Assembly: GCF_002736205.1 (NCBI RefSeq)
Contig: NZ_CP024091.1
Span: 744,001 to 808,000 of the forward strand
Direction: 5' to 3'
From: Pedobacter ginsengisoli
GTDB taxonomy: Bacteria; Bacteroidota; Bacteroidia; Sphingobacteriales; Sphingobacteriaceae
Length of the DNA: 64,000 nucleotides
This document shows, in pieces, positions 20,237 to 43,052 of the stretch. The notes below the pieces were generated by a model, which was not told where the DNA came from, did not search any database, and worked only from the letters and a program-made list of their open reading frames with translations. The position numbers and the translations under genes are program-made. The stretch's first letter is position 1, and every line of letters starts with the position of its first letter.

Positions 20237-20326
20237 GGAGGGATGCCTGAGTGGCCGAAAGGAACAGTTTGCTAAACTGTCGTACTGGCAACGGTACCGA
20301 GGGTTCGAATCCCTCTTCCTCCGCCA
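20237..20326 (+). tRNA. tRNA-Ser (GCT anticodon), CCA encoded
   Basis: The acceptor stem is GGAGGGA with TTCCTCC (one G-T pair), and the discriminator G is followed by an encoded CCA at 20324-20326. The anticodon GCT is at 20271-20273 in loop TTGCTAA, the long variable arm typical of tRNA-Ser is present, and the T loop is TTCGAAT. It reads AGC/AGT codons. It borders the genomic island, and the recombinase gene on the other strand overlaps its 3' half. Confidence 0.95.
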
Positions 20327-21837
20327 AGTGGGATTCCACAAATTTTATCAGAGGGTTGCTCCAAAAAGAGCAGCCCTTTTTCTTTGAGTATCAATAAGTT
20401 AGATTCGAATTCTGGATTGATCCAGGGTGTTCTAAATGACCCCTCTTTGAATGTGAGACCCTGTTTGAACACCTGCTTAATAATAGCATGTTGCTGTCCG
20501 ATTGTAGAATCCTCAAAAATCTGAGGTAAATTCAACATATAGGGTAAAACAAGCAATTCCTGATGTAAATGTCCTTCCATGGTTTCCAGGAAATTAAACT
20601 CATCTTTCAATTGCGCTTTTTCAGCCGCAAATTTTTTCATTCCTTTCTTATATGTCGTATCATTGATCACTCCATCGAAAAGTTTATTTTCAATATTTTC
20701 AATTTTTGTTTCAATAGCCGCAAGTTTTGTCGCTAAAATTTTATGCCTTTGATCCCTTACCTCGAGGGTAGTCTTTGCTAAGCTGGTAATCCTTTCTATG
20801 AGCTTGTCAAGAAATTCTGGACTGAAGCTGATGTATTTCAGTAATTCCTGGAATTTTTGATGAACCAATGTTCCTGAAATATTGATGTTAGTATGCTTAA
20901 TGCAGCGGTAGTACATATAATATTTATTTTTACCCTTGCTCCAACCAGCTGTCATATTGGTATTGCAACAAGGACTTTGTAAAATGCCCTTCAAAGGAAA
21001 TTCCTCCTTAGGTTTAGAATTCATGGATCTTTTACCGTTCTCTATCATTTCTAACGCACGGAAATACTGTGATTCTGATACAATTGGCTTATGCATGCCT
21101 GGAACAAGTTTTTCAGGGTATTTGCCATTGGCGCATACTCTTACCAGGCCTGCGTACAACGGATTATTCAAAACCCGGAAAATTGCACTATTTCCGCTGA
21201 GCGGAAATCCAAGTTTTTTAACTTCAGAATGAATGAGGAAAGGCTGGATTCCAGAAAGGTAATCCCTAAAGATCTTCCTGATCACAAATGCCGTCGATTC
21301 ATCAATTTCTATAATTCTCTTTCCTCCGGCTTGCGTCCCATTTGTATAACCAAAAGGAGCTCTGCTTAAGTACCTTCCTGACTCCTGTGCGTGTCTTGCA
21401 CCTTCTTTTGCCCTCCGACGTATGGTTAATAATTCTTGGTTCGCGATAAGGTATTTAAATGCTCTTAATAGGAAGACGGAGGGGTCGGCTGTGTCAATGT
21501 CCAGTGGCTCACTTGTCGCGATTACCTTAATGCTGTATTTCTTTTCCAGGGACTCTATTTTTTGTAGTGCCTCGGGCAAGTTACGACTGAATCGGTCATG
21601 GTCAAAAACAACTAGGTATTTGATCTTACTTTTTCCCTTGTGGTTTTTAATGAAGTTTTCGAGTGCTTTGTAGTCGGGACGGTCAAAAGTGTAACTGCTT
21701 TCTCCATCATCAATGAATAACGGACCGAGAGTAATCTGGTTCCGGTCGGCATAATCACGTATATTTTTTTCCTGATATTCGAGTGAATGTGTTGATTGGT
21801 CTTTTTTACTGATCCTTATATATCCTATTGCATCCAT
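20272..21837 (-). CDS. Large serine recombinase (island integrase)
   Basis: This 521-residue protein has an N-terminal resolvase domain with YIRISKKDQ (catalytic Ser10) and the usual arginines (FDHDRFSRNL, IRRRAKEGAR). A Recombinase domain follows (APFGYTNG, then a DNA-binding region), then a zinc ribbon beginning SPCCNTN, a coiled-coil-like segment and a C-terminal tail. This is the architecture of large serine integrases that move islands and phages. The last residues are encoded antisense to tRNA-Ser, and the TAG stop overlaps the anticodon, so the native C-terminus was probably altered by integration. The start overlaps the upstream small gene by 32 nt. Confidence 0.92.
   Translation of the reverse strand: MDAIGYIRISKKDQSTHSLEYQEKNIRDYADRNQITLGPLFIDDGESSYTFDRPDYKALENFIKNHKGKSKIKYLVVFDHDRFSRNLPEALQKIESLEKKYSIKVIATSEPLDIDTADPSVFLLRAFKYLIANQELLTIRRRAKEGARHAQESGRYLSRAPFGYTNGTQAGGKRIIEIDESTAFVIRKIFRDYLSGIQPFLIHSEVKKLGFPLSGNSAIFRVLNNPLYAGLVRVCANGKYPEKLVPGMHKPIVSESQYFRALEMIENGKRSMNSKPKEEFPLKGILQSPCCNTNMTAGWSKGKNKYYMYYRCIKHTNINISGTLVHQKFQELLKYISFSPEFLDKLIERITSLAKTTLEVRDQRHKILATKLAAIETKIENIENKLFDGVINDTTYKKGMKKFAAEKAQLKDEFNFLETMEGHLHQELLVLPYMLNLPQIFEDSTIGQQHAIIKQVFKQGLTFKEGSFRTPWINPEFESNLLILKEKGLLFLEQPSDKICGIPLGGGRGIRTLGTVASTTV
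20353..20381 (+). terminator. Terminator downstream of tRNA-Ser, inside the recombinase ORF
   Basis: GGGTTGCTC (20353-20361) pairs with GAGCAGCCC (20368-20376) around a CAAAAA loop and is followed by five T's on the plus strand. It lies within the antisense 3' end of the recombinase gene. Confidence 0.75.
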
Positions 21838-22009
21838 TTCTGATCTTTCTAACGATGTTCTCCGTAATGATTTCGGCTAATAAATTTAGTAAACTTTCAC
21901 TGCATTTCGAAGCTTTTTCTGTCACCTCCGCATGCCGTGATGGAGTGCTTTCAGTTGTGTGGTTGCTTTCTTTTTGTTCGGCTTGTGTTTTGATCTTATT
22001 TGATTTCAT
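21806..22009 (-). CDS. Small protein upstream of the recombinase
   Basis: This 67-residue protein has a charged, flexible N-terminal half and a short amphipathic helix (SLLNLLAEIITENIVRKI) near the end. Its last 32 nt overlap the recombinase start, and it begins 8 nt after the upstream 91-residue gene, so the three form one transcript. Small genes of this shape often precede recombinases on Bacteroidota islands; I do not know the function. A role as directionality or recombination helper is a guess. The start at 22009 is chosen over 22027 because it avoids overlap. Confidence 0.65.
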   Translation of the reverse strand: MKSNKIKTQAEQKESNHTTESTPSRHAEVTEKASKCSESLLNLLAEIITENIVRKIRNGCNRIYKDQ

Positions 22010-22017
22010 GCTTCTTT

Positions 22018-22293
22018 TTATCTGCAATAGTTAGCATTTTGAACCAATAGAGGGTCATATGGGAGAATAGGTGTCATTGGTATTGTCTCCATGATGAGCC
22101 CGGCTTTTTCGTTATTGATGGTGAGTTCATGTTCATTAAGTATTCGAATGGCATTCTTTTGGGCTGATTTTTCGCTTTTTCCGGGGATTCGATACATGGG
22201 CATTTGGAGTAACTCACAAATATCCTGAAAGGCTGTTTCGCGTTTTCCCATGTGGGAAAAATGGATTGGTTGCCGGATTATTCTAAATCCCAT
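22018..22293 (-). CDS. Hypothetical protein leading the recombinase operon
   Basis: This 91-residue protein matches no family that I recognise. It has a basic central part (RIPGKSEKSAQKNAIRIL) and a hydrophobic, proline-rich C-terminal region. Two start codons are possible, at 22293 and 22251, and each lies inside one of the two CCCAyATGGGA palindromes. Repression by a protein bound to those palindromes would therefore block translation or transcription directly. It is first in the operon with the small gene and the recombinase, so it may be a regulator or excision factor, but no HTH is evident. Confidence 0.55.
   Translation of the reverse strand: MGFRIIRQPIHFSHMGKRETAFQDICELLQMPMYRIPGKSEKSAQKNAIRILNEHELTINNEKAGLIMETIPMTPILPYDPLLVQNANYCR
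22243..22260. repeat. CCCAyATGGGA-type inverted repeat, copy 1
   Basis: TTTTCCCA and TGGGAAAA are separated by TG. It covers the alternative start of the 91-residue gene. Confidence 0.75.
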
Positions 22294-22302
22294 ATGGGAT
22301 TT
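22285..22302. repeat. CCCAyATGGGA-type perfect palindrome, copy 2
   Basis: AAATCCCATATGGGATTT is an 18-bp perfect palindrome that contains the ATG of the 91-residue minus-strand gene at 22291-22293. Confidence 0.8.
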
Positions 22303-22523
22303 TAAAAATTGGGGGTACTTTTCTGATTGTTGATCAGGTTCTTCTTAGTTGGGGTTTTATTAATCCTGCACCAAGGTAGCCACCTGACTTTCGGGGCGCA
22401 AAAATTGTTCGGCATAAACCCACCGGCTTCCGCTCCATCCCATTTATTCCGCTGCATTTTTTGCTTGCTCAGTCATCGGCTAGGGTGCGCGCAATTAATC
22501 AAATTTTCCATTAAAAATTAAAG

Positions 22524-22994
22524 ATGATGAAAGCGCAACATTTAAATCCATTGTTCCAGGTTTCAGAGATTAGTGTTTCTTACCAACCAAAGTTTAAGGC
22601 ATCAGAACGCCCGAGAGTCACCAGTTCGCGGGAAGCTTATAAGGTACTGATAAACAATTGGGATATGCAGAAGATTCATTTCCAGGAACAGTTTTATGTG
22701 TTAATGCTTAACTCTGCCGGAAGGGTGATAGGAATATCACTGATATCAACTGGTGGTAAGGTTGCGACAATAGCAGATCCCAAGATTATTTTCAGCATTG
22801 CTTTGAAAGCGCAGGCTGTGTCTATAATTTTGGCGCACAACCATCCTTCAGAAAACTTGAAGCCAAGTCAGGCTGATGCGAATTTAACCAAAAGGATGGT
22901 TGAGGCGGGTAAGTTTCTGGACTTAATGGTGATTGATCATTTGATAATTACCAGAGATGGTTTTTATTCATTTGGTGATGAGGGATTGATATAG
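22524..22994 (+). CDS. RadC-like JAB/MPN domain protein (JAB domain only)
   Basis: This 156-residue protein is a stand-alone JAB domain of the RadC (UPF0758) family. The JAMM metal site is complete: Glu55 (HFQEQFY), His105 and His107 (LAHNHPSE), Ser115 and Asp118. The N-terminal helix-hairpin-helix domain of full RadC is absent; about 45 unrelated residues take its place. Short RadC proteins are common on Bacteroidota mobile elements and their role is unsettled. A gene at 43623 on the same island carries the missing N-terminal half without a JAB domain. Two adjacent ATGs (22524 and 22527) are equally possible. Confidence 0.88.
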   Translation: MMKAQHLNPLFQVSEISVSYQPKFKASERPRVTSSREAYKVLINNWDMQKIHFQEQFYVLMLNSAGRVIGISLISTGGKVATIADPKIIFSIALKAQAVSIILAHNHPSENLKPSQADANLTKRMVEAGKFLDLMVIDHLIITRDGFYSFGDEGLI

Positions 22995-23010
22995 TTCTGA
23001 AAGTTGAACT

Positions 23011-23457
23011 TTAATTTAATGCTCTTTTGATATCATTCTTATCGTCCTCGTCGAAATCTGACCATAGTTTGGTGTAGTAATTTTTAGATACCAATTTTCT
23101 GTCGATTTTTTTCCGATACATGTTATCTAAAATATCGTGAAGGTCAGATAGAGTATCTAATTTTTCCAGCCTATTGTCATTCATGGCTAATGTACCAAAT
23201 TTTTTAAGTGAATGAACTTCGGGATATTCTGTTTTGTGAAGGCCAATAATATATTCTTCAAGATCCGAACAATAACTTATAATATATATATGGTCAGATT
23301 CACTTGCCTCTTTAAGAAGCTCGCTGATGTCAAATTCATCCCGATTAGCGAACCTGCGTTCTGCCTCAATGAGATATGGTATTGTTAAACCATATTTTCC
23401 ATCAACGATGCACCATGTATTCACCAGTTTCTGCCATACATTTGATAGTAGTTCCAT
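23011..23457 (-). CDS. Hypothetical protein, third gene of the membrane operon
   Basis: This 148-residue soluble, acidic protein matches no family that I recognise. It reads as mostly helical, with a segment resembling a sensor or adaptor (DHIYIISYCSDLEEYIIGLH). It starts 8 nt after the stop of the membrane-protein gene and is the last of three genes transcribed together. The operon setting suggests that it works with the 316-residue soluble protein and the four-helix membrane protein. No nuclease, NTPase or protease motif is apparent. Its convergent neighbour is the RadC-like gene, 16 nt away. Confidence 0.72.
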   Translation of the reverse strand: MELLSNVWQKLVNTWCIVDGKYGLTIPYLIEAERRFANRDEFDISELLKEASESDHIYIISYCSDLEEYIIGLHKTEYPEVHSLKKFGTLAMNDNRLEKLDTLSDLHDILDNMYRKKIDRKLVSKNYYTKLWSDFDEDDKNDIKRALN

Positions 23458-23465
23458 AGTTTGAT

Positions 23466-24017
23466 TTAAGTGGGAGCGTCGTTTTTTTTCAGTAGAATAT
23501 AGATTCTATTTAATATCATAAGCATCGTCAAAAAGAAAATGAATAATAGAAAATAAATTAGTGCAGTTACCGCCTGATTCAAGTAGATCATAAATTGATG
23601 GCAATAAACTTTCGGCATGTATGAGTAGCCCAACAAACAGATGAGTAGAAATAGAGAGATCAGGATATTGAAGGAAATATTGACGTGCACTTCTTTGATG
23701 AATATTTTCTTTAGCTCTCCTGAATCAGATTCAGGAAGTTGATTCTCGACATCTAACGTTAATTTGTCCATTAAGCCATAAATAATAGCCAGCAAATTGA
23801 ACAGGAAGCCACCAATAATAGATACAGCCGTAATTAAATCGGTGATGTGATCGTCTACACTGATCTTAAAATAAGCAAGTGCAACACTAGCTCCCAGTGG
23901 AATAATGAAAAATAGGAGTAAGTCCCCAATGGATCTCCGCCGGGGTGTGGTGTCTATCCTCTTTAAAGTATCGAGGTGATCACAGATGATTTTAATGAAA
24001 TTAATGCGCTGAAACAT
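23466..24017 (-). CDS. Four-helix inner membrane protein
   Basis: This 183-residue protein has a cytosolic N-terminus of about 30 residues with a basic patch (RIDTTPRRRS) and four hydrophobic helices at roughly 33-50, 60-80, 113-133 and 142-170. The long loop between helices 2 and 3 is charged (NQLPESDSGELKKIFIKEVH). Its start overlaps the end of the 316-residue gene by 17 nt, which points to coupled translation and a shared complex. Small four-helix membrane proteins beside a soluble sensor are seen in the RexAB and Kiwa defence systems; that is the analogy I draw, not proven homology. Confidence 0.75.
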   Translation of the reverse strand: MFQRINFIKIICDHLDTLKRIDTTPRRRSIGDLLLFFIIPLGASVALAYFKISVDDHITDLITAVSIIGGFLFNLLAIIYGLMDKLTLDVENQLPESDSGELKKIFIKEVHVNISFNILISLFLLICLLGYSYMPKVYCHQFMIYLNQAVTALIYFLLFIFFLTMLMILNRIYILLKKNDAPT

Positions 24018-24951
24018 TTGGCTTCAAAGTTAGCATATCTGTGATTAAACTTTCCGATACTCTCACTAATGACTCTACTGTTGGTTCATTGTTGACGATA
24101 TCTAAGTCGTCTGAAATTTCCACATCCGGTTGCGTGCGGCTCTTGGCAAAAACATGAAACGTTTTTTTCTTGCCATTTAGTTCTAACTCAAATTCTACTT
24201 CATCTAGCTTGTCAAGCCCTTCTAGTTCAATTAGGCTATCCTTTTTGTAGTTTTTATGATAGAGTTCCTTTACCAGATCTTTCCAGTATTTCCCCAAGGA
24301 AGGCGCTCGGACTGAAGTCGTTAATGTTCCTCTTTCCTTTTTTAATCCTTTTGAGTACAAGTCCTCAATCGTACTGGGAATGGTCTTTCTAATAAAATCA
24401 ATATTTTTGAGGCTACCCTCGGTCATCATGCGGTCAAAGACTCTCCCGTTCAACAAATTATTGATTGTAGCTGAGTATTTGAGGTAGCCTCTTTCCTTCA
24501 GATATAAGTTCAATGCTTTTTCTATGAGCCCCTTTGCCCCTAAATCTCGTTTTTTCTGTATGATCAGGTATCCATAGTTCTTGTCTCTAGGCAATTGGAG
24601 ATAGAAGAAAAGATTCCGGAAAGTGACATGTTTGTTGGGATCAGCTTCAAATGCGGTTGTTGTCTCCCCTTCAGCTCGCACTTTGAATTTGTCACCGCCG
24701 ATACCACTTGAAATATACCCATAAAAAACTCTTTTGGATTTGTCAGATGTTACTGGTTCGTCTAGGGTAAGATGTAAGACAGTTCGATCCTTAAAAGAAT
24801 GTGTCTTTTTGATATTTGTATAAATATCAGTCATGAAGTCATTGAAAAAATCAAAAAAATCTTCATTCGCATTGAATTTGCTCAATAGAACTTCAGCTTT
24901 TTCTTCAAATACACTTAATTTGTATGTCGATAAATAGATTTTTTGGGCCAT
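24001..24951 (-). CDS. Soluble protein paired with a membrane partner, possible Rex/Kiwa-like sensor
   Basis: This 316-residue soluble protein matches nothing that I can name with confidence. The first half looks beta-rich (VFYGYISSGIGGDKFKV, FRNLFFYLQLP, YGYLIIQKK). The middle has a pattern like ATINNLLNGRVFDRMM, and the C-terminal part holds a region that could bind nucleic acid (TLTTSVRAPSLGKYWKDLVK). That order recalls RexA of lambda and the DUF4868 protein of Kiwa, both of which work with a small four-helix membrane protein. It leads a three-gene operon and overlaps the membrane-protein gene by 17 nt. Confidence 0.65.
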   Translation of the reverse strand: MAQKIYLSTYKLSVFEEKAEVLLSKFNANEDFFDFFNDFMTDIYTNIKKTHSFKDRTVLHLTLDEPVTSDKSKRVFYGYISSGIGGDKFKVRAEGETTTAFEADPNKHVTFRNLFFYLQLPRDKNYGYLIIQKKRDLGAKGLIEKALNLYLKERGYLKYSATINNLLNGRVFDRMMTEGSLKNIDFIRKTIPSTIEDLYSKGLKKERGTLTTSVRAPSLGKYWKDLVKELYHKNYKKDSLIELEGLDKLDEVEFELELNGKKKTFHVFAKSRTQPDVEISDDLDIVNNEPTVESLVRVSESLITDMLTLKPNVSAH

Positions 24952-25043
24952 TTAGATATTTGGTTTTTTAAGAGGTTTAGGTAAATATACTAGATTCTCA
25001 TGAAAAACCGCTTCTGTTGGTGTTGGGAGCTGCCAGCCCAAAC

Positions 25044-25061
25044 TTTTCCCATGTGGGATTT
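25044..25061. repeat. CCCATGTGGGA repeat, copy 3
   Basis: TTTTCCCATGTGGGATTT is the same motif as at 22243 and 22285. It lies between the membrane operon and the mob genes. Confidence 0.7.
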
Positions 25062-25317
25062 CTCCTAAGTCATACTGTTCATTTTTGGCTGAAACAAAAT
25101 ATGGTGACTATGAGCAAGTATAGTAATCAATACCTCAAAGGCAAAGAGAAGTGCTACAATTTTGTGCCGCACTTGAAGTTTAAAAGAGTAAAACTAGCAC
25201 TTCGAATTAAAATCCGTCGACCACTGAGAATTAATATTTCGGTGACTCGGTACTTGGGGGACGGCATGTTGACTAATCATTAAACTTTTCACAAACCTTC
25301 TTCAATCAACAATTACG

Positions 25318-25404
25318 TTCAGAAAAGCACTTTCTGAAGAAGCTTCGTTGTTGCACGCGTGTGCAAAGCAAAGATGTATTTTCGTATACGAAAACCTCTT
25401 TGCT
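25318..25404. other. Candidate origin of transfer (oriT): clustered hairpins
   Basis: Three inverted repeats lie in 87 bp. TTCAGAAA/TTTCTGAA pair at 25318-25338. TTGCAC/GTGCAA pair around GCGT at 25351-25366. AGCAAAGA/TCTTTGCT (25367-25374 with 25397-25404) enclose the perfect 16-bp palindrome TTTTCGTATACGAAAA at 25379-25394. They lie 65 nt upstream of mobC, where oriT sits in related mobilizable elements. The nic site cannot be placed from sequence alone. Confidence 0.55.
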
Positions 25405-25469
25405 GTCCTTAAGGCCAGGGGTTTTGCTTCGGAACTCGCAAATCCTGAACGTGGGTAAATATCACTTAA

Positions 25470-25877
25470 ATGCCGAGGAAAAAAGCGAAAAACCAGGAGC
25501 AGGTACTGACCCATCCGATCATTATCAGGGTGACGAAGACGGTATTTGACCGTTTGGAAAACAAGCGAAAGGAAAGCGACTGTGGCACTATCGGAGAAGT
25601 CGCCCGTAAGATCCTGTCAAATAAATCTATCAAGTGTTTTTACAAAGATGTAACGCTGAATCCGGTGATGGAAGAGTTGGCCCAGATCAGGAAAGAACTT
25701 AAAGCGATCGGGATTAACATCAACCAGATCACGCGTTCTTTCAATCAGGACAAGGTTGAAAGCCATCGGGCATTTTACGTATTGAAAGTTGCAGATCGCT
25801 ATAAAAAAGTGGAGGAAAAAGTCGATCGTTTGCTCATACTGATTTCCCAGCTCGCTGAACGATGGTTGCAAAAATAA
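25470..25877 (+). CDS. Mobilization relaxosome accessory protein (MobC-like)
   Basis: This 135-residue basic protein fits the plasmid mobilization MobC family. It has a basic N-terminus, a ribbon-helix-helix-like segment (PIIIRVTKTVFDRLENKRKE) and the typical C-terminal stretch IRKELKAIGININQITRSFN. Such proteins bind oriT, open it and load the relaxase. It overlaps the relaxase gene by 16 nt and lies just downstream of the hairpin-rich oriT candidate, which fits its role. Naming of Mob proteins varies in Bacteroidota, so the letter C is by family resemblance only. Confidence 0.88.
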   Translation: MPRKKAKNQEQVLTHPIIIRVTKTVFDRLENKRKESDCGTIGEVARKILSNKSIKCFYKDVTLNPVMEELAQIRKELKAIGININQITRSFNQDKVESHRAFYVLKVADRYKKVEEKVDRLLILISQLAERWLQK

Positions 25878-27139
25878 CAACGGGCAAAAGCATCAGGGGA
25901 ATGCTGCATTATAATGAAAATAAGGTGACTGCAGGAGAGGCCTGTTTGATCCTGTCCAGTGGTTTTGCGGTTGACATTGACCAACTGAATTTTAACCAGA
26001 AACTGCAAAGGTTCCAGCACCTGACCGAATTGAAACCGAACGTGAAAACCAATGCGGTTCATATTTCCTTGAACTTTCACAGCAGTGAAAAACTGGATAA
26101 TTTAAAGTTGCAGCAGATTGCTAATCGCTATATGGAAAGTATCGGTTTTGGTGATCAGCCCTTTTTGGTTTACCGTCATGATGATGCAGCGCATCAGCAC
26201 CTGCACATCACCACGACCAATATTACCGCAAATGGGGTACGGATAGATCTTCATGATATCGGAAAGCGGTTATCTGAACTGGCCAGGAAAGAGATTGAAA
26301 TCGAATACGGACTGGTAAAAGCAGAAAGTAAACAAGCCAAACAGGAAGCCGGGATTAAACCTGCCGATCTGGAGAAGGCCTACTATGGAACGTTACCAAC
26401 CAAAAGGGCAATCAGTAATGTAGTAACCGCTGTAACCAGGGATTATAAGTTTACTTCACTGGCCGAATACAATGCCATTCTGAAATGCTTTAATGTAGTG
26501 GCTTTTCGCGGAGCGGAACATACTGCCATGTTTGAAAAGAAAGGGCTGATGTTTTCTATGCTGGATAAAAAGGGTAACCAGGTTGGTGTACCGATCAAGT
26601 CCAGTGCCTTTTACAGCAAACCAACTTTGCGAAACTTGGAAAAGAAATTTGAAGCCAATGTTGAAAAGCGTAAAGGCTTTAAGGATGACTTGAAAGTGCG
26701 AATCGATAAAATAATAGGAAATAGGGCTGGCATCAGCAAGAAAGCATTCGAAGAAGGGGCTAAGGAACTGGGCATAGAAGTTAGTTACAGGGAGAATGCA
26801 GCAGGTCCAATCTTCGGGATCACTTTCGTAGACCACATAAACAAGGTGGTATTTAATGGTAGCGACCTAGGTAAAGCGCATAGTGCGAAGGCAATTACCG
26901 GTAGGTTTACGGCAAAAGACATTGGTCTAAAACCGGAGCACAAAACCGAACTGAAGACTGGTAAGTCAACTAGAATGATTAAATACCAACGGGGTGAATC
27001 TGTATTCATCCTCCCCAAAACACCAAAGCTAATTGAACTGGTACTGGCCAAAACTTCAGCGGAAAGTGGTATCAAAATCCCTAAACGCAGAAAAAAACGC
27101 AAGAAAAAACAACGCATTACCCAGGAACTCAATTTATAA
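25862..27139 (+). CDS. Relaxase/mobilization nuclease (MobA/VirD2 family)
   Basis: This 425-residue relaxase nicks one oriT strand and stays bound to its 5' end. The likely catalytic tyrosine is Tyr17 (GMLHYNENK). The metal site is the three-histidine motif at residues 111-115 (YRHDDAAHQHLHITTTN). The N-terminal 150 residues are the MobA/VirD2-type domain; the C-terminal part is basic and ends in a Lys/Arg-rich tail (KRRKKRKKKQR) suited to DNA binding. It overlaps mobC by 16 nt and is followed after 9 nt by a coupling-protein gene. It appears intact. Confidence 0.93.
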   Translation: MVAKITTGKSIRGMLHYNENKVTAGEACLILSSGFAVDIDQLNFNQKLQRFQHLTELKPNVKTNAVHISLNFHSSEKLDNLKLQQIANRYMESIGFGDQPFLVYRHDDAAHQHLHITTTNITANGVRIDLHDIGKRLSELARKEIEIEYGLVKAESKQAKQEAGIKPADLEKAYYGTLPTKRAISNVVTAVTRDYKFTSLAEYNAILKCFNVVAFRGAEHTAMFEKKGLMFSMLDKKGNQVGVPIKSSAFYSKPTLRNLEKKFEANVEKRKGFKDDLKVRIDKIIGNRAGISKKAFEEGAKELGIEVSYRENAAGPIFGITFVDHINKVVFNGSDLGKAHSAKAITGRFTAKDIGLKPEHKTELKTGKSTRMIKYQRGESVFILPKTPKLIELVLAKTSAESGIKIPKRRKKRKKKQRITQELNL

Positions 27140-27148
27140 ATATAGACT

Positions 27149-28048
27149 ATGGAGACCGGAGAAGACAAACAGGGACTAAGAAAAATACTGGATCTTACCA
27201 GAATGATCAGTATGGCGATACTGACAATACACCTATACCTGAGCTGCTACCAGGCATTTGTGGAATGGGGACTCACGAGTCAGCTCATGGAACGTTTATG
27301 CAAAAACCTTGCAAGACTGGAAATATTTGTCGGGCTGTTTAAACCTAAACTAGCGGCACTAGTTTGCCTGCTCATTTCCCTAATCGGTGCCAGCGGCAAA
27401 AAGGATGAAAAGTCAAAATGGAAAAGCATCGTCGCTTACCTGTTATGTGGGCTAATGGTTTATGGGTTATCTTTTTTGGTGTTTTACCTGCATGTAGCGA
27501 TCAGCATGGTGGCTGGTCTCTATATTGGGTTAACTGCTACCGGTTACCTGCTGATGCTTGCTGGGGGAACACGATTGTCTAGGTTAATCCGGTTAAACTT
27601 AAACAAAGATATTTTTAACCGCAACAACGAAACTTTTCCGCAGGAAGAACGGCTGCTGGAAAATGAGTATTCCGTCAACCTGCCCGCAAAGTACAACTAT
27701 AAAGGTAAAGTCAGGGACAGCTGGATCAATGTCATTAATCCGTTCCGGGGGATGCTGATTGCGGGTACGCCGGGTGCAGGTAAATCTTATTTTGTGATAC
27801 GGCACATTATTGAACAGCACTTGCGTAAGGGCTTCAGTATGTTTTTGTATGATTTCAAGTTCGATGACCTATCTAAACTCACATATAACAAATTGCTGAA
27901 GTACTACAGGAATTACAAAGTGAAACCCAAATTCTTTGTGATCTGTCTGGATGAGATCTATCACCGGTCAAATCCTTTAGAGCCGGATAGTATGGAAGAC
28001 ATTACTGATGCGGCCGAATCTGCCCGAACGATGTATGATGGGGGGTGA
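27149..28048 (+). CDS. Type IV coupling protein (TraG/MobC-like), C-terminally truncated
   Basis: This 299-residue protein is the front part of a Bacteroidota conjugative coupling protein, which normally runs to about 600-700 residues and pumps the relaxase-DNA complex to the secretion channel. It has several N-terminal membrane segments (about 20-45, 60-75, 85-115 and 120-140) and Walker A GTPGAGKS at 206-213. The reading frame breaks just after the conserved ESART-M segment and ends in YDGG. Walker B and the motor domain C-terminus are missing, so it cannot be a working motor unless supplied elsewhere. Cargo genes begin 65 nt later. Confidence 0.85.
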   Translation: METGEDKQGLRKILDLTRMISMAILTIHLYLSCYQAFVEWGLTSQLMERLCKNLARLEIFVGLFKPKLAALVCLLISLIGASGKKDEKSKWKSIVAYLLCGLMVYGLSFLVFYLHVAISMVAGLYIGLTATGYLLMLAGGTRLSRLIRLNLNKDIFNRNNETFPQEERLLENEYSVNLPAKYNYKGKVRDSWINVINPFRGMLIAGTPGAGKSYFVIRHIIEQHLRKGFSMFLYDFKFDDLSKLTYNKLLKYYRNYKVKPKFFVICLDEIYHRSNPLEPDSMEDITDAAESARTMYDGG

Positions 28049-28050
28049 AA

Positions 28051-28081
28051 TTTGTAGAACGGAATTATTAAGCTATATTCA
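28051..28081 (+). promoter_or_regulatory. Likely promoter of the GGCT-nuclease/PLD pair
   Basis: TTTG at 28051-28054, a 19-nt spacer and TATATTCA at 28074-28081 resemble the Bacteroidota consensus, with two mismatches in the -7 box. It lies in the short gap after the truncated coupling protein. Confidence 0.4.
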
Positions 28082-28113
28082 TAAATCTAATCAAATGCAC
28101 TCAAACCTACTCC

Positions 28114-30135
28114 ATGAACCTCGGTATACTCGCCTATGGGTCGTTAATTGACGATCCCGGTAACGAACTTAAAAAAATGATTGTCGACAGAATTCCCTGT
28201 GTTACTCCATTTAATGTGGAGTTCGGTAGGATCAGTAGTACTAGGGATAACGCGCCAACACTTATTCCTGTGGAAAAAGGCGGGGCTGCCGTTAACGCTG
28301 TTATACTGGTTTTAAACAATGACGTAAACATAGACCTGGCGAAATCTATGTTATGGAGAAGGGAGATCAGGTCCACCGATCTTGCTAGAAAATACAAAGA
28401 ACCTAAAAAGCCGGGACCAAATACGGTAGTCGTGAAAGTGCTAATTGAATTTCATGGGGTTAGGGAAGTAGTTTACACTTCAATCGCATCTAACATTGGA
28501 AACGTCCACCCAAACATACTTGCGGGGCATGCTGTCGAATCGATTCTGGCCGAAGCCGGTGAAGATAAAAAAGATGGCATCAGGTATTTACTAAAAGCAA
28601 AAAATAATGGCATTGTTACCGGGGTTAGTGCTGAATATGAAGCGGAAATTCTCAGGCAAACAAATACCCGTTCACTTGAAGAGGCCATAGAACAATTGGA
28701 TCAGCTGCGACCCATTCACCTGGAAAGAAAACTGGATCTGGACGAGTTTGAGTTACAGGTTGCTGAACTGGCCGAACTGATCTGTAATTATGGGCTTAAA
28801 ACTACGATCCAGAAAACCGAGTTTACAGGCGATGACCCCAGAGAGCTGGCAATCAAGCACAGGAAGGTTTTTATGCAATGTTGCCATAATGGTTTTAAAA
28901 CTGCACAAAGTAAAATTGTTGCCTTGATGCTCGATCTGGAAGATCACCAAGAGCAACTGGAAAAGGAGTTGAAAAGTGCAAATGTCAACAAACAACGTGA
29001 GCTTGTTTTCAGGCTAAGGCTCAAAATCAAACGAGTAGATTTTAAGGAAGCGGTTTTAAGAAACCTAATAGATTGTATTGCCTGGCAATTGTTTAAAGGA
29101 CAATTGTATATTAATAGAAGGCTTTATCAAGGAGTGAAGGGAAAGAAAAAACTGAAAAATTCAAATATTGAATCTGCCATCAATGCTGCTGCAAAAATTA
29201 ACAGTGACCCTTATGACTTTGCGTTGATCACCGATCTGTCCGCATTTATCCAAACAGCAGACCTGATTCATATCAAAGAGAGCGGTGAGATGCTGTTTGT
29301 AGAATTAAAGCAGGGAGAAAAGAGCAGGCAAATTTTGGAGGTGATGAATAAACTGCTCGACCTGAATAATTCGCCGGAAGATGTTTTTAAGGAAGTAGCG
29401 CTGGATAAACATTCATTAGCCCAGTTAGACCGCAACTTGGCGCAATATAAGCAAGCTGCGGGAGTAATGGAAATCTTGTCCACGGACAAAGGGAAGGATA
29501 AACAGGGCCGGACGGTAAACATCATCTCACCAAATGAGGGTACACCCAGATTCACCGACCAGATCAATGGTCTGGAGAAGCAATTGGAGAAAAGGAATTT
29601 TTGGGCTTACGATGTGGTGGATGACTGTTTACACCTGGCGATGTATAAAGGGATCATGCGTAATGGTGGACCGAAGATGCTTGAGGAGCTTGCCAAAAAG
29701 CATAACCAGCAGTACATCGTATGTGATTATTTGAGTGTCCTGACTTCACTTCATCAACCTTTATTCTTTTTGCCCGTCGATAAGACGCTGATCTTCGATA
29801 TACTATTCGGACGGGTAAGTTTTTACATGATGCTGGAGATCGATAAATACCTTGAGCTCTTCCCCGAACAAGGATTAAAGGCTGAATGGATGACAACCAA
29901 GGAAACTATGAAGTTAAATCAAGCGCATAAAGGAAGCGAAATGTTCACCCATAAAGGGCGCGGACTTAAGGTATCAAGAGAAGGTGCGGAGACTGTACTC
30001 ACCGTTGGTCTAGGTTTAGTTGGAAAAATATTCTACGAACATATTCTTCCCGCATACACTGCGTACACTTTTAATTATCATCTGGACAATAAGCTGGCGC
30101 ACCAGGCTACAAAATCTTCAGACAATGGAAACTAA
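28114..30135 (+). CDS. GGCT-like domain fused to a PD-(D/E)XK-type nuclease domain (candidate defence effector)
   Basis: This 673-residue protein opens with a segment like gamma-glutamylcyclotransferase-fold proteins (LGILAYGSL at residues 3-11, then IDDPGNEL). A long helical middle (about 200-340, coiled-coil-like around LEDHQEQLEKELK) follows. At 363-400 is a PD-(D/E)XK-like core: Asp383 (TADLIHI), then Glu397-Leu-Lys399 (FVELKQGE), spaced 13 residues apart. The C-terminal 270 residues are unassigned. Its stop overlaps the start of the PLD-family gene by 11 nt. The pair sits at the break point of the coupling protein, a typical cargo position. Function is not known; nuclease activity is inferred. 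Confidence 0.72.
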   Translation: MNLGILAYGSLIDDPGNELKKMIVDRIPCVTPFNVEFGRISSTRDNAPTLIPVEKGGAAVNAVILVLNNDVNIDLAKSMLWRREIRSTDLARKYKEPKKPGPNTVVVKVLIEFHGVREVVYTSIASNIGNVHPNILAGHAVESILAEAGEDKKDGIRYLLKAKNNGIVTGVSAEYEAEILRQTNTRSLEEAIEQLDQLRPIHLERKLDLDEFELQVAELAELICNYGLKTTIQKTEFTGDDPRELAIKHRKVFMQCCHNGFKTAQSKIVALMLDLEDHQEQLEKELKSANVNKQRELVFRLRLKIKRVDFKEAVLRNLIDCIAWQLFKGQLYINRRLYQGVKGKKKLKNSNIESAINAAAKINSDPYDFALITDLSAFIQTADLIHIKESGEMLFVELKQGEKSRQILEVMNKLLDLNNSPEDVFKEVALDKHSLAQLDRNLAQYKQAAGVMEILSTDKGKDKQGRTVNIISPNEGTPRFTDQINGLEKQLEKRNFWAYDVVDDCLHLAMYKGIMRNGGPKMLEELAKKHNQQYIVCDYLSVLTSLHQPLFFLPVDKTLIFDILFGRVSFYMMLEIDKYLELFPEQGLKAEWMTTKETMKLNQAHKGSEMFTHKGRGLKVSREGAETVLTVGLGLVGKIFYEHILPAYTAYTFNYHLDNKLAHQATKSSDNGN

Positions 30136-31165
30136 ACAGCGGTCGTATTTTGAGAACATAGAATCATTGATTATTGAACGGATTCGATCAGCCCAATCCA
30201 GTATATATATAGCTGTCGCCTGGTTTACCAGTTCTCCGATCAAGGATGCTTTGCTGCAAGTAAAGAATAAGCGACCGGAAATCACCATAGAGGTTGTTGT
30301 TGATGACAATGACGTGAATAAAAAATATTTTTTAAATACACAGAGTGATTTTTTGAACGCCGGTATCCTCATTCATCGTAACTGGAAGGCAGACTTCCTG
30401 CATCGCAAGTTTATGGTGATCGATGATCTTACTACATTGACCGGTTCTTATAATTATACAAGGAAGGCTAAGTTCAATGCTGAGAATTTAAACGAGACGA
30501 TTGACGTTAATTTTGCTCAAGTGCATTTTCGTGTTTTCAGAAGGATGACCGATGAAAGTTACTTCGATGAAAATATGCAATTGCTTCTGGATTACCCATT
30601 GTTTGCACAGAAACTGCTTTCCACCTATTTTTCTTTCAGTAAAGCCCAGTACAATAGTTATAAAAACAAGATTGTGATCGGTGATTGTTTTACACATGAC
30701 GTAGGGGATTATGATGAATTATCATACTATCCGGGTTTTATCTTTAACCGGAAATATAAGTTTGATACGAAACTGAGAGATCACGAGTTTCCACTTCCTA
30801 TTAATAAATCAGTTATAAAAAACTGGATCGGATCCAGAAATCAGATAATGATCATTGAATCGTACCGGGAATATCCAGAATCCTGGGATGAGATTAGCGA
30901 CAGGCTTGAAGAATACGAAATATCGTTTGAGAAGTTTTACAAGAATAGGTTAGAAAGCACATACACTTACGAACAGCTGAAAGATTGTATTGAGCGTGAT
31001 GTAGACATTATTGTGGAGGACCGGATTTGGTCGGATAATTTCGCTCTTTTCATGGACGATAACATTATTGATGCTGCATTTGACAAGATGCCCGAAGCAG
31101 AAAATAATTACTGGAATGATTTTGCGATCGAAGTGGAAAAAATCATGCGTCAGAAAAAAACGTAA
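30125..31165 (+). CDS. Phospholipase D-like (HKD) domain protein
   Basis: This 346-residue protein has one HKD motif, H93-x-K95-x4-D100 (LHRKFMVIDDLTTLTGSYNY), in an N-terminal phospholipase D-like domain that begins with SSIYIAVAWFTSSPI. Single-HKD proteins usually dimerise to build one active site and act as nucleases or phosphodiesterases. The C-terminal 200 residues, rich in Tyr, Asp and Glu, match nothing I know. I start at the ATG at 30125 rather than at 30020: it gives a standard PLD N-terminus and an 11-nt overlap with the upstream nuclease gene, indicating coupling. Confidence 0.82.
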   Translation: METKQRSYFENIESLIIERIRSAQSSIYIAVAWFTSSPIKDALLQVKNKRPEITIEVVVDDNDVNKKYFLNTQSDFLNAGILIHRNWKADFLHRKFMVIDDLTTLTGSYNYTRKAKFNAENLNETIDVNFAQVHFRVFRRMTDESYFDENMQLLLDYPLFAQKLLSTYFSFSKAQYNSYKNKIVIGDCFTHDVGDYDELSYYPGFIFNRKYKFDTKLRDHEFPLPINKSVIKNWIGSRNQIMIIESYREYPESWDEISDRLEEYEISFEKFYKNRLESTYTYEQLKDCIERDVDIIVEDRIWSDNFALFMDDNIIDAAFDKMPEAENNYWNDFAIEVEKIMRQKKT

Positions 31166-32057
31166 AAATATTTTCATGCCTTGTCAATGGTCTTTGATTT
31201 TCATTCTTATTGTCTATATATGGAAGCAAAATCTTTACTCGCTTATCTTCTTGATATTATCGCTCCGGGGAGCACTTAGATTGATCGGAATCTGAACATC
31301 TAACAAAACGATATTGATTTCGAAATATGCCACCAGTTAGAAAGCACACTTCGATTATTATCGTGATACCCGACAGGATAGTTCCTGCTGTGTCAGTATG
31401 TTCGTTTCACTAGAGAAATTGCATCGTGGAAGGAGAGGTTATTTAGCGTTAAATAAAAACCGTCCTAAATGAAAAAACTTGCTATCCTTTTGGTTCTCTT
31501 TACTCTTTCAATTCATGCATTCGCGATTAATCCTTCCAGGGAATATCAAGTAAGACCCCAGGATATTTCGAGAAAGAAGGAGTCTGTCTAGGAAGACCTG
31601 ATCGGATATCTATTTTAAAAATCGACGAATTATTCGAATCGTATTTTAATTTCAAAAGGTAACAAATCGCTATTTTCCATAAATGGCTGTATAGCGGCTT
31701 TGGAGATGACCATTGAATGTCGGGAAAGGAAGTCTCTGTCTCGTCGTGCGATAACTTTATAGTCGGTTTTTTAAACTTCCAAAGATTTGGATCGTAATTG
31801 TTTAGATAATATTTTATATTTTATTGCATATAAATTTTGTTTTAAATGCGTTATTATATGTATTTAAACTGGTTCCAGTAAGTGATAAAGATTTATGAGA
31901 CGTGCCCAAACTTTATTACGGTTCATTAAACAACATCTGGAATTAAATGTTGCCTTAATATTCAGATTATGGGATTTTTGGGGATTACATTTTCCTAGGT
32001 AAATGCCATTTTTGAGCCAATTCCTTGTTCGCCCTTTAGCGCAGCATATCTTTCATT
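31166..32057. other. Gene-poor stretch with eroded coding remnants
   Basis: This 892-bp region has no intact gene that I can support. It contains a 40-codon fragment with a signal peptide (31469-31591). A short open stretch on the minus strand around 31640-31780 has no family that I recognise. It separates the PLD pair from the thioredoxin-like pair and looks like a scar between cargo blocks. Confidence 0.6.
31469..31591 (+). pseudogene. Truncated gene fragment with a signal peptide
   Basis: Forty codons encode a clear signal peptide (KKLAILLVLFTLSIHAFA), then NPSREYQVRPQDI, and stop at a TAG. The mature part is too short to be a product. It looks like the 5' remnant of a secreted protein gene whose remainder is gone. 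Confidence 0.45.
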
Positions 32058-33557
32058 TTACAACAAGCCTTTAATTATCGTTTTCAATTTGTCATTTCCA
32101 GGGAAAGCGGTAAACTTATTGACGAATACGCCCTGCTTGTTATAGATCAGATAGGACGGAATATATTCGAATTCAAATTTGCTCATCACGTGTTCCCACT
32201 GATCGCCTGTCAGATAATAATGCTCACTTCCTATTCCTTTAATTTTTTCTTCCCATAGCTTTCGGGGTGACGACCCGTTGGTTAAATACACGAAGGCAAT
32301 ATTCTTATCGTGAAATTCGTTTTTAGTGCTTCTGAATTGTGTCATGGCATCCAGGCAAGGCCCGCACCAGGTCGCCCAGAGGTCGATAAAAACAACTTTT
32401 CCTTTGTGTTTAGCAAGAATTGCTTCCATAACCTGTTCTTTTGGAACTGACGAAATATCATTTACAACGACCGGTGATTTGAATTTATCCAATTCGACCA
32501 CCTGTCTGTTCTTTCTAAGCAGGATTTTCGCAATTTCTCCTTTTTTCCAATAACTTATGATATTCTCTTTTTGCTTTTCGGATAGTGGTCTTATTTCTTC
32601 GTTTAGCTGTCTGCCATAGGCATTAGCGACTAAAATATCATAATATGGACCATCACTGAAGCCGACCAGATCCGCTAAAATAACTTTCACCTTTGCCAGC
32701 CAGGAGGGAATGTCAGTTTCTCCGATCTGAGGGAGGTCTAATATTTCATTTTGAAGAATTTTTTTTTGAGCTTCAAGGAAGGAATAACAATTCAGATATT
32801 GCGGGTCATTGAGCTTAAAATCTTTTAAAAAGCGATAATAAGATTTGTCAATCTTTTGGATCGCAGGTTTGTTAACCGTGTCCCGGGTGATGTTTCGATA
32901 ATTCATGGTCATGTATTTTTCGTAGTCAAAGACAAAGCTGCTATATTGGAATAACCGAAAATCCTTAGAAAGAAAGCCTTTTATTTCTTTTGACAAGAGT
33001 TGGCTATTATTTAAAATTTCCAGTCTTTTCGATACCGCAGTTTTAGCATGGGTCAGAAATACATCCGTGCTTTTGTCGTATAAAGATGTAGGTGCTCCAT
33101 GATAATCCAACATTTCATCTATGATCGCTATACTGTTGATCATGTCTGCTTGAGACAGGCCAGCTGGCCTGACGTCCAAATTTTTGATCTCAAAATTTGA
33201 ATTGTAAGTAATGTCAATGTTGGTTGTACCAGCACTCGTCAATTTAACATAAAGGGGTTTTCGCCTTAAACTGGTGTACAAGCTAATCAGCGTGATGTCT
33301 GTTTCGACAGCTACATCGATAGCGAACTTTCCTGACCGGTCGGTAAGCGCTTCCTGCTTAACATACTCGCCCAAAATTGGATGGGGGACGCCGATGGTTA
33401 AAAGTACGCTATCCTGATGAGCACCGTCCGGATTGATTATTCTTCCCGTTAGCTTGGCTGTACCTGCTTTTATCGCGGGTGTACCTATTGAGCTGACAGC
33501 AGATTGTTTACATGATAAGAGGAACAAAAGGCTGAGTATACAAAGAAGATTTTTCAT
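32058..33557 (-). CDS. TlpA-like thioredoxin lipoprotein
   Basis: This 499-residue protein has a lipoprotein signal (lipobox LLSC at residues 13-16). A beta-rich N-terminal domain like those found before TlpA domains in Bacteroidota follows (TGRIINPDGAHQDSV), then a helical middle, and a C-terminal thioredoxin fold with WATWCGPC. It should be anchored to a periplasm-facing membrane and act as a thiol-disulfide reductase. It is divergent from the second thioredoxin-like gene at 33713, sharing a 155-bp promoter region. The pair looks like island cargo. Confidence 0.88.
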   Translation of the reverse strand: MKNLLCILSLLFLLSCKQSAVSSIGTPAIKAGTAKLTGRIINPDGAHQDSVLLTIGVPHPILGEYVKQEALTDRSGKFAIDVAVETDITLISLYTSLRRKPLYVKLTSAGTTNIDITYNSNFEIKNLDVRPAGLSQADMINSIAIIDEMLDYHGAPTSLYDKSTDVFLTHAKTAVSKRLEILNNSQLLSKEIKGFLSKDFRLFQYSSFVFDYEKYMTMNYRNITRDTVNKPAIQKIDKSYYRFLKDFKLNDPQYLNCYSFLEAQKKILQNEILDLPQIGETDIPSWLAKVKVILADLVGFSDGPYYDILVANAYGRQLNEEIRPLSEKQKENIISYWKKGEIAKILLRKNRQVVELDKFKSPVVVNDISSVPKEQVMEAILAKHKGKVVFIDLWATWCGPCLDAMTQFRSTKNEFHDKNIAFVYLTNGSSPRKLWEEKIKGIGSEHYYLTGDQWEHVMSKFEFEYIPSYLIYNKQGVFVNKFTAFPGNDKLKTIIKGLL

Positions 33558-33712
33558 GAGCGCGAGTTATATTAGTAAGATAGTTTTTCTGGTTATGAAA
33601 AACAAGTAATCTCGGTAGTTTTATATGGTTCTAAAGGGACTTGACATATGATCTGTGTGTTTTGCAACAATCCTATAATTATATTGCTAAATCTTTGTAT
33701 ATTAGGGTAATT

Positions 33713-36070
33713 ATGCTCTTGTTTATGTCTAGATTATTAACGCTTCTCTTTGTTTTTAGTTTTCCTTATTCCGCTCTTTGTCAGGAGTTGAATGTGCCAA
33801 ACGGCCAGCAGTTCGCCTACACTTGGCATGTAGTGGGAAAGGGCGGACACAAATATGATCAGTTGCGTACCTATATTTTTCGCTCACTGGGCAGAAATGA
33901 CAAAGGTGATAATGTGTTCGAATGTCAATTAGTGAGAGCGGTTGAAAAAGACGATCCTGGTGCAAGTCCAGACTTGGATACCGATAATCCTAAAGCGACA
34001 GTCTTTAATAATTCGGGTGTGTTAACACCTCTGGCGCTATTGCAGCAACCCCTTACAGTAACAGTTAGCGCGAAAGGAAAGCTTTTGGATATTGATGGCT
34101 ACGATGCTGTTTTATCACGTGTGGACAGGGACTGGGAACTTCAAAAGGGCATAAGGAGTCAGATCGAAAGCCGTAAAGAATCACTGGGTTACTATATTCA
34201 GGATATGTTTTTCCAATTTCCAGACCAGCCAATCGGTAGTTCGGGAGAATGGAAGGATAAACGTGGAGTCAGTTATAAAATGGAAAGATTGTATGGACAT
34301 CCCCGTGGGGCGGTGAAAGTAAATAAAGAAGTTCCTGAATTTAATAAAGCTTCATTTTCTAACGAATCACTACTGCAAATTAGTTTTGTTCGTGAGGGCG
34401 ATGTGGAAGAAAAAGGGATTTATATTTTAGATCCTAAAACTGGTTTGGTACGGGATTTTAGCAAAAACAAGTCTTTTGAATATAGCTATAGCTCTGTAAA
34501 CGATCGTGAGGTATCGGAATTGGCAATAGTAATGGAAACGAATCCTAAAGAAAGCAATCTGGATACGGCCTGGCTTAACATGGCGATAAAAACGGGCTTA
34601 TGGTCTGCTGCATTTGGAAGTGGTCAGGACTACAATCTGGAGAAGATGCAGCGATATTTCAAGACAAAAGATGCTCAGTTTGAAAAAACTCCCCTTTACC
34701 AGGTAAATAAGCTCTCCCTTCTCCAGAAACTGCGCAAGAATCCAAAGGCAGAGGCCTTGTACAGTGATTTGCTGATGTCTATCCCGAATGCTTATCTTTC
34801 AGTGCCAGGTCTCTACCATCACCTCATAAATAAATTCCACCAGCTTTTCGAGAAAGATGCGCGTCTTGCCTATGAAGTTGCGGGTTATTTTTATCAAACT
34901 AAAGATTTCAATAGTTGGCTGCATGAAACATCGGCGCAGAATTTTCTTAGTTCTTATAGCTCAAATAAAGAAAGCTGGGACAATGGACTGGAAGTAGTTC
35001 GATTGATGCATACAGATAAGAACCTTGCTATGCGTCAAACTGCTGATCCCTTGTTCTACTGGTCTCAGGCAAATAAAAATCCAAAGGATTTGAATAAATT
35101 GTTGAGCTCAGCCAACGCATTGTCGAAAATGGATAATAAGACTATGCAGCTTGGTAAGGGTGGGAGGTATGGAGTGTTGGTTTATCAACTGTTGGTAAAT
35201 GAAGGTAAGCAAGCAGAAGCAAACCACTTGCTGGACGCAATCTTAGATAAACTGCATGTGGTAGTGGTAGATACATTATATGGTGGTAGAAAGGATGATA
35301 GGAGTATTTTGGCCCATGCATACCAGTTGAAATACCTGGCCAGGAAAGGCTCGGGTGATGTAAATGCGATCAAGTACTTGTCTTTAGCGGCACAATATTC
35401 GCCCACCGGGCCTGCAGATAAAAGCAGGATGTCAAGATATGACAAGCATTTCCTGAAGTCGAAAGAAACCTACCGGCAGGATTTTGTGGAAATGCTGTTC
35501 AGCTCCGGTAATGAAAAACAGGCACTCAAAACCTTTGCTGCACATATCAGTGCAGAACCGGAAAGTCTTGAAGAGATGAAATCATTGTACCTGAGACATT
35601 TTCCTCAGAATGACTTTAAAGCCTTAATGAGTGATGAGGTGATTGTTTCATGGGAGAAGGCACCGGATTTTAAATTGAAAGACCTTAATGATAACGAAAG
35701 GACGCTGAAGGATTATTCGGGAAAGTGGATGGTCATAGACTTCTGGGGCACCTGGTGTGGTCCCTGTGTCGCAGAACTTCCTGAAATTAATACTTTTAAT
35801 AAAGAGTTGGATGAAGGTAAGTACCCAGGCGCTACGTTCTTAAGTATTGCCTGTAAAGATTATGAACAAACTGTTAAAGCGTTTCTGACTAAAAATAACT
35901 ACGAAATCCCTGTACTGATGTCTGATAACAAAATACAGTTCAAGTACAATATAGATGGATATCCTTATAAAGTTATGGTGTCGCCAACCGGAAGGATGAT
36001 CACTTTGGAAAGAGGCAAGGACTGGAGGAAAATTCTGAAGCTATTTAACCGTATTTCAGGGGTATGGTAA
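33713..36070 (+). CDS. Large secreted protein with a C-terminal TlpA/thioredoxin domain
   Basis: This 785-residue exported protein has a signal peptide (MSRLLTLLFVFSFPYSALCQ), a long N-terminal region without recognised family, helical repeats in the middle (about 300-620, TPR-like spacing) and a C-terminal thioredoxin domain with DFWGTWCGPCVAELP. The frame is open from a TTG at 33641, but the signal peptide points to ATG 33713, or to 33725 just after it. It is divergent from the TlpA-like lipoprotein, so the two may share regulation and substrates in the periplasm. What they reduce is unknown. Confidence 0.85.
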   Translation: MLLFMSRLLTLLFVFSFPYSALCQELNVPNGQQFAYTWHVVGKGGHKYDQLRTYIFRSLGRNDKGDNVFECQLVRAVEKDDPGASPDLDTDNPKATVFNNSGVLTPLALLQQPLTVTVSAKGKLLDIDGYDAVLSRVDRDWELQKGIRSQIESRKESLGYYIQDMFFQFPDQPIGSSGEWKDKRGVSYKMERLYGHPRGAVKVNKEVPEFNKASFSNESLLQISFVREGDVEEKGIYILDPKTGLVRDFSKNKSFEYSYSSVNDREVSELAIVMETNPKESNLDTAWLNMAIKTGLWSAAFGSGQDYNLEKMQRYFKTKDAQFEKTPLYQVNKLSLLQKLRKNPKAEALYSDLLMSIPNAYLSVPGLYHHLINKFHQLFEKDARLAYEVAGYFYQTKDFNSWLHETSAQNFLSSYSSNKESWDNGLEVVRLMHTDKNLAMRQTADPLFYWSQANKNPKDLNKLLSSANALSKMDNKTMQLGKGGRYGVLVYQLLVNEGKQAEANHLLDAILDKLHVVVVDTLYGGRKDDRSILAHAYQLKYLARKGSGDVNAIKYLSLAAQYSPTGPADKSRMSRYDKHFLKSKETYRQDFVEMLFSSGNEKQALKTFAAHISAEPESLEEMKSLYLRHFPQNDFKALMSDEVIVSWEKAPDFKLKDLNDNERTLKDYSGKWMVIDFWGTWCGPCVAELPEINTFNKELDEGKYPGATFLSIACKDYEQTVKAFLTKNNYEIPVLMSDNKIQFKYNIDGYPYKVMVSPTGRMITLERGKDWRKILKLFNRISGVW

Positions 36071-36207
36071 TTTGTTTATTGCTATCTGAAGTATCTTAGT
36101 GTTGCAGTAGTTCCACTAGGGAACTGATTAATCTTTTATCTCCAAAAGATTAACCAGTTTAGCCTTAAACTCAGTTTTAAGTCAGCTCTTCAAAATATTG
36201 TTTAATT

Positions 36208-36238
36208 GTTCTTCGTTCGCAATTTGCAAACAAAGAAC
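36208..36238. promoter_or_regulatory. Imperfect 31-bp palindrome upstream of the HTH gene
   Basis: GTTCTTcGTTcGCAA and TTGCaAACaAAGAAC flank a central T, with only two mismatched positions. It is 63 nt upstream of the HTH gene and may be its operator. Confidence 0.5.
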
Positions 36239-36301
36239 ATAGGTGTTTAGATTTATTGTGTTATTGGAAATTTATATCTTCAGCTTTTAATCATTAATTA
36301 A

Positions 36302-36577
36302 ATGGAAACTATTCTGCTACAATCCTTTACGGTGGATGAATTTTTCGAAAAAATGAGGTCGATTATTAAAGAGGAACTCAAAAGTGCGCTACAACAGGAT
36401 CAGTTATTGACTAAAGAAGGTGCATTGAAAATAACGGGGGCTAGCAATGCCGTCTTTTTAAAGGCGATCAATGACGGGGTGGTCAAGCCCCAATTGGTCA
36501 AGGGCAGAAAAAAGGCTATGTACTTGGAGTCAGAAGTACTGAAGATACCAGTTCGCCGAAGAAGGGCCGAATATTAA
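36302..36577 (+). CDS. Helix-turn-helix (excisionase-like) DNA-binding protein
   Basis: This 91-residue protein resembles the MerR/excisionase-type HTH proteins of Bacteroidota elements. An N-terminal helix (VDEFFEKMRSIIKEELKSA) precedes the HTH-like part (LLTKEGALKITGASNAVF) and a basic wing (GRKKAMYLESEVLK), ending in RRRRAEY. Such proteins regulate transfer or help recombination. It lies in front of a 31-bp imperfect palindrome, and its stop overlaps by 4 nt the stop of the convergent 248-residue gene. Confidence 0.8.
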   Translation: METILLQSFTVDEFFEKMRSIIKEELKSALQQDQLLTKEGALKITGASNAVFLKAINDGVVKPQLVKGRKKAMYLESEVLKIPVRRRRAEY

Positions 36578-43002: not shown

Positions 43003-43052
43003 ATATACAGTTGCATGGTTTTTACAGATGTGAAGGTAGATGTCAAACAGAT

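Follow-up and report, generated by a model that had tools for sequence, protein, structure and literature searches.

Recombinase gene, tRNA-Ser gene and a putative embedded terminator

The window, i.e., the whole 64,000-nucleotide stretch analysed here (positions 744001-808000 of the single 5.37-Mb contig of Pedobacter ginsengisoli), carries a tRNA-Ser(GCT) gene (called by ARAGORN, anticodon at gene position 35) and, on the opposite strand, a 521-amino-acid serine recombinase ORF (20272-21837; Table 1). An earlier, sequence-only reading of this DNA held that the ORF runs 55 nt into the tRNA gene in antisense and that its stop codon overlaps the anticodon, and both statements were borne out: the overlap is exactly 55 nt (20272-20326), and the stop (20272-20274) coincides in part with the anticodon (20271-20273). 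The protein contains the Pfam Resolvase domain (PF00239, E 3.6e-23) with its catalytic serine and the Recombinase domain (PF07508, above cutoff), together with a PF13408 match below that domain's cutoff and a profile match to the C-terminal domain of A118 integrase (4kis, E 3.9e-14); residues R8, S10 and Q14 are invariant among the aligned family integrases. Together with a zinc ribbon and a coiled coil (seen as two long helices in the AlphaFold model), the recombinase domain places the protein among the A118-like large serine recombinases, a class in which excision takes place only with a recombination directionality factor.

Table 1. Features of the tRNA-Ser island and its recombinase gene (window coordinates)
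Feature	Position	Strand	Remarks and basis
tRNA-Ser(GCT), integration target	20237..20326	+	In attL, last bases from within CCGC (20321-20324) onward island-derived
Integrated-form C-terminal codons, antisense to tRNA-Ser, about GRGIRTLGTVASTTV	20272..20320	-	ORF and in-silico join
attL core CCGC, same as attR	20321..20324	.	Empty-site comparison
Recombinase body, common to both forms	20325..21837	-	Catalytic, recombinase, zinc ribbon/coiled coil, GLLxxEQP, linker
Putative intrinsic terminator for tRNA-Ser	20350..20379	+	Opposite recombinase codons K-GLL-FL-EQP; terminator-like hairpin and codon-level test
Whole island, ~35.9 kb	20321..56201	.	MobB relaxase, MobC N-terminal part, defence-like cargo
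Detached recombinase C-terminal coding segment, GVAGSPLQHLEVILSIIMEVYNKK plus stop, at far island end	56125..56201	-	attR location, tail profile, in-silico join
attR core CCGC	56198..56201	.	Second copy of far-end sequence and flank
Chromosomal attR side, A/T-rich inverted repeat and T run	56202..56247	+	Read by eye as original tRNA terminator

A tRNA terminator embedded in the 3' end of the ORF had likewise been proposed, and a terminator-like hairpin is indeed present on the tRNA strand at 20350-20379. The corresponding GLLxxEQ stretch is invariant across the family, and its self-pairing averages 8.10 of 9 Watson-Crick pairs vs. an expectation of 4.81 (sd 0.15, maximum 5.35 in 5000 trials) under synonymous recoding, with codons drawn by the integrases' own codon usage. 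Changes in the pairs involve both partners (G-C to A-T or C-G), and the hairpin is flanked by an A-rich run, i.e., a T run on the tRNA strand. This pattern argues that the last conserved codons of the recombinase body (GLLxxEQP) double as a terminator, a predicted replacement, since integration separates the tRNA from its own. The right flank of attR looks like the displaced terminator of tRNA-Ser; a hairpin scan called none at 56202..56247, where the loop exceeds what the scan allows. Between the hairpin at 20350-20379 and the tRNA gene is a further short inverted repeat, often GGG...CCC (window 20327-20349 and the equivalent positions of homologues); its symmetry is kept, while its sequence and centre vary between clades. 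It is possibly a recombinase-binding feature; with its register not fixed between clades, we do not claim it as a conserved structure.

Island ends and the two predicted C-termini

In relatives whose site is empty, similarity to the window stops at base 20324, and the sequence at attR (window 56198) reads GGCTACC, then the core CCGC, then AAAACCGG... The att cores thus found (20321-20324 and 56198-56201) are not remote from the target, the shared CCGC sitting at the very 3' end of tRNA-Ser. Joining the two island ends in silico changes the last residues of the recombinase from ...GG-GRGIRTLGTVASTTV to ...GG-VAGSPLQHLEVILSIIMEVYNKK, so that the 521-aa integrated form ending in GGGRGIRTLGTVASTTV would be replaced in the excised form by a protein of about 529 aa ending in GGVAGSPLQHLEVILSIIMEVYNKK. 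The expectation that the C-terminus differs between the integrated and excised forms is thereby supported, as the predicted 3' end of the excised gene is not identical to that of the integrated one. The join is not merely a computer construct, because a natural copy of the joined, attP-like sequence (the 3' end of the integrase followed by the tail) exists at G000:C1:843517, next to what remains of a truncated integrase gene. For another island, in P. chitinilyticus (tRNA-Arg, 28.9 kb), the circle junction is predicted to encode ...ISTVQDDYFEHLERF.

An initial reading of a 79-kb island ending at G000:C1:843517 was rejected: that site is a separate attP-like junction next to the remains of an old integrase gene, and attR proper lies at window 56198. 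The surrounding segment outside the window (G000:C1:842978-843949, L005:2978-3949) holds a degenerate third tail copy, the attP-like junction and a 430-bp integrase remnant, which we interpret as traces of older islands about 43 kb beyond attR.

Within the island, a MobB-like relaxase (E 9.5e-85) is accompanied by a MobC-like coupling protein whose match spans only positions 1-297 of 655; the latter gene (window 27149-30135) appears truncated and is followed by an unrelated ORF, and mobilization of the island may be broken. The cargo at window 30020-54108 includes many defence-like genes, among them a KAP/PifA-like NTPase, AbiH, a NERD protein, an ApeA-type HEPN protein, a PLD-like protein, and HNH and restriction fragments, and an IS110-family transposase gene (window 54666-55730) lies ~0.4 kb from attR.

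Family pattern and conservation of the detached tail

Family members, collected by a same-family search and a named-genome scan, are found in Pedobacter, Mucilaginibacter, Sphingobacterium, Olivibacter, Parapedobacter, Chitinophaga, Niastella and relatives. Of the homologues analysed (44-69% identity), the majority adjoin a tRNA or tmRNA gene, and all of these run antisense into its 3' end in one frame. At least 11 tRNA types plus tmRNA are targeted (Ser GCT/TGA/GGA, Pro CGG/TGG, Leu CAA/TAA/GAG/TAG, Arg TCT, Glu TTC, Met CAT, tmRNA). The residues encoded by the tRNA depend on the target, and their number varies across the family from two to dozens. Such an ORF could in principle be an annotation artefact of a known kind, in which a lost stop codon lets the frame run by chance into the tRNA; tRNA genes read in antisense frequently lack stops, and the residues derived from them show no conservation beyond that of the tRNA itself. 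Against this, none of 74 sequences (49 unique, including some displaced from a tRNA) contains a stop after the conserved LL motif and before the tRNA end, and nearly all have 73 nt between the LL-motif region and the end of the tRNA, over many tRNA types and in one frame (71-72 nt in a few others, some of which are ARAGORN calls that include CCA). The antisense read-through and frame shared by the homologues make the overlap more than a chance event, and we regard a spurious extension as already refuted by this family pattern and its probability as negligible.

More distant relatives located away from tRNA genes (L207, L209, L212 and L213, about 40-42% identity) have a different, contiguous C-terminus and could represent the ancestral unsplit arrangement. 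At G372:C12:298654-340262 (L072, L113), a tyrosine-recombinase element occupies the same tRNA-Leu(CAA), between the tRNA and the serine-family member, which thereby gains yet another C-terminus. L035, considered as a free attP form, was rejected, having been displaced by 41 kb by a tyrosine-integrase element at the same tRNA-Leu. Plasmid and IMG/VR searches gave no family matches, and a phage search gave matches at about 25% identity only.

The far ends of 10 delimited islands, inserted at Ser, Pro, Leu, Arg, Glu or Met tRNA genes, carry a segment of 20-30 aa (EHL or QHL followed by a hydrophobic helix) with neither a catalytic residue nor a known DNA-binding domain, and in-silico attL/attR joining places this tail in frame with the integrase in 10/10 cases. 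Far ends in G000, G344 and G248 were first located without the motif, by DNA similarity or remnants; a profile built from the first six tails was then run over other islands, and the tails it found have the integrase orientation and lie beside the matching tRNA core. Scores were 26-34 for the four copies in L030, 22 for L017, 19-21 for L012, L014, L029 (two) and L027, and 10 for L033 (supported by core and frame only). Among elements that had not contributed to the profile, E values went as low as 1e-8. Block-shuffled DNA scored up to 11-15 bits and the reverse strand gave two chance hits of 16.7-18.3 bits; the weakest calls (L027, L033) therefore rest also on core, frame and position. G000, G248, L019 and L026 do not count as independent finds, because the scanned DNA overlaps the training set. 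Contiguous body-plus-tail ORFs occur as 5'-truncated remnants in G248, G370, G336, G288, G398 and G209; in G242 the tail is out of frame by a single base. The DNA examined around L010, L013, L016, L018, L020, L035 and L038, beyond which some of these ends may lie, yielded no tail, and none appeared within 40-60 kb in seven tRNA- or tmRNA-overlapping islands of a ~30%-identity clade. A 17-bp repeat in G271 was rejected as attR, the tail-bearing site being about 150 bp away.

Conservation of this segment could, in principle, concern only attP DNA, with an exchange of no consequence for the protein; the segment adjoins the crossover, where serine integrases bind attP half-sites of about 25 bp (PMC3783163). 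The observed pattern, however, makes this explanation very unlikely. Differences between nine tail pairs fall at codon positions 1/2/3 as 49/37/102 (102 of 188 at third positions, binomial P = 3e-9), and the bias persists in codons at least 27 nt from the core (33/22/56, P = 1.5e-4; seven pairs, no sequence used twice). Conservation reaches 70-90 nt from the core, is concentrated at codon positions 1 and 2 even in the part more than 27 nt away, and in most cases stops with the tail's stop codon: identity over the next 30 nt falls to 0.13-0.30 in 6 of 7 pairs, remaining at 0.87 only for L029a/b, two copies in one genome. Pairwise dN/dS is about 0.08 to 0.63 where dS is defined. Given half-sites of about 25 bp, DNA binding alone does not explain this conservation. 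The concentration of differences at third positions and the loss of similarity mostly at the stop argue from codon patterns that selection in the family acts on the tail at the protein level, and it must do so in the circle or in a tandem array, because only there is the tail joined to a start codon.

The predicted C-terminal exchange and its possible consequences

Taken together, these observations favour a model (probability roughly 0.7) in which attP lies within the integrase's own 3' coding region, integration and excision reversibly exchange the C-terminus, the tail aids integration, and the tail-less form is altered rather than dead. The product of the gene in the excised circle would be about 529 aa long and would end in the QHL/EHL tail, a conserved helix on a tether; integration at the 3' end of tRNA-Ser would strand the tail codons 36 kb away at attR, leaving the gene to continue into the antisense strand of the tRNA for 15-17 variable residues. 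Only the excised form, or an integrase in a tandem array, would thus bear the tail, which would act in the circle, where its most likely role is to promote attP x attB integration via the coiled-coil and zinc region. In the AlphaFold model the tail forms a helix (204-216, pLDDT about 80) on a disordered linker; a fold search was uninformative, with coiled coils dominating the matches. Coiled-coil contacts of serine integrases select attP x attB and block attL x attR (PMC3783163). Because the tail is a predicted helix on a flexible linker following the coiled coil, and such contacts set direction, it probably supports integration. The integrated, tail-less protein would re-integrate less readily and could serve in excision together with a directionality factor, presumably as an altered recombinase and not a dead one, since every known catalytic and DNA-binding domain is kept. 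The earlier suggestion that recombinase properties could depend on integration is indirectly supported by the conservation, as protein, of the excised-form tail in related islands; activity may differ between the two forms, and the exchange could represent a built-in switch of enzyme behaviour. A stronger version, in which the exchange is itself the directionality switch (attP x attB only with the tail, attL x attR without it, and little or no separate factor), so that every recombination would re-equip the enzyme for the reverse reaction, appears unlikely.

The main rival to a tail that supports integration is a suicidal integrase, in which loss of the tail inactivates the enzyme and locks the island, so that excision would depend on an intact integrase supplied by a related island, either in tandem or newly arrived. 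Archaeal SSV-type integrases act in this way (PMC8371274), and in the present family tandem accretion and truncated integrase remnants beside tails are common, the distal copy of an array regaining a tail. On the other hand, the detached piece is only about 25 aa, unlike the SSV type, and includes no catalytic residue or known DNA-binding domain, while the catalytic S10/R8/Q14 and the A118-like C-terminal domain remain in the body; we consider inactivation possible, yet clearly the less probable outcome.

The principle of the exchange has precedents. In Myxococcus phage Mx8 (IntP/IntX), attP lies inside int and integration replaces 112 C-terminal residues by 13, changing integrase activity or specificity (PMC6070905, PMC4701971). 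The likeness to our family, seen in the in-silico joins and the natural body-plus-tail copies, is an attP within the int coding sequence and a C-terminal segment replaced upon integration; Mx8, however, is a single phage with a tyrosine recombinase, whereas here Pfam domains identify serine recombinases, with many tRNA targets and a tail of 20-30 aa. Streptococcal rumA ICEs carry an att site in a serine integrase gene, with a different length and C-terminus in the excised form; their target is a protein gene and not a tRNA, and the portion of the source available to us only proposes a functional change and describes no conservation analysis of the detached segment (PMC4701971). A further streptococcal precedent is an IME in snf2 (PMC5357655). 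The CcrB-like Dehalococcoides recombinase DsiB overlaps the 3' end of ssrA at attL with no stop inside the island, and its authors suggest full function perhaps only on the circle (PMC3146451); compared by published arrangement alone, it differs in targeting only ssrA, and no conserved detached tail is described in the available part of that account. In the archaeal SSV type, the att site in the integrase gene partitions it on integration, but these are tyrosine recombinases whose large C-terminal piece carries the catalytic domain (PMC8371274), whereas here only the 20-30-aa tail is separated. What is new is the clade itself, together with the sequence evidence of selection on its detached tail; in the open-licence literature we found no report of this integrase clade or of selection on a detached segment.

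Serine integrases are widely used genome-engineering tools, and the basis of their one-way behaviour is a central question. The family described here would provide a large natural set in which a short C-terminal helix, apparently selected as protein, is attached in the excised form and detached by integration; since the tail is integration-dependent, its role can be tested directly by comparing a single protein in two versions. Stranded tails may also help to locate by sequence where such islands end on the far side, and the statement of a review that self-disrupting recombinases are exclusively archaeal (PMC8371274) would need qualifying. Finally, the dual-use GLLxxEQP codons suggest a way for an island to keep the tRNA gene of its host properly terminated.
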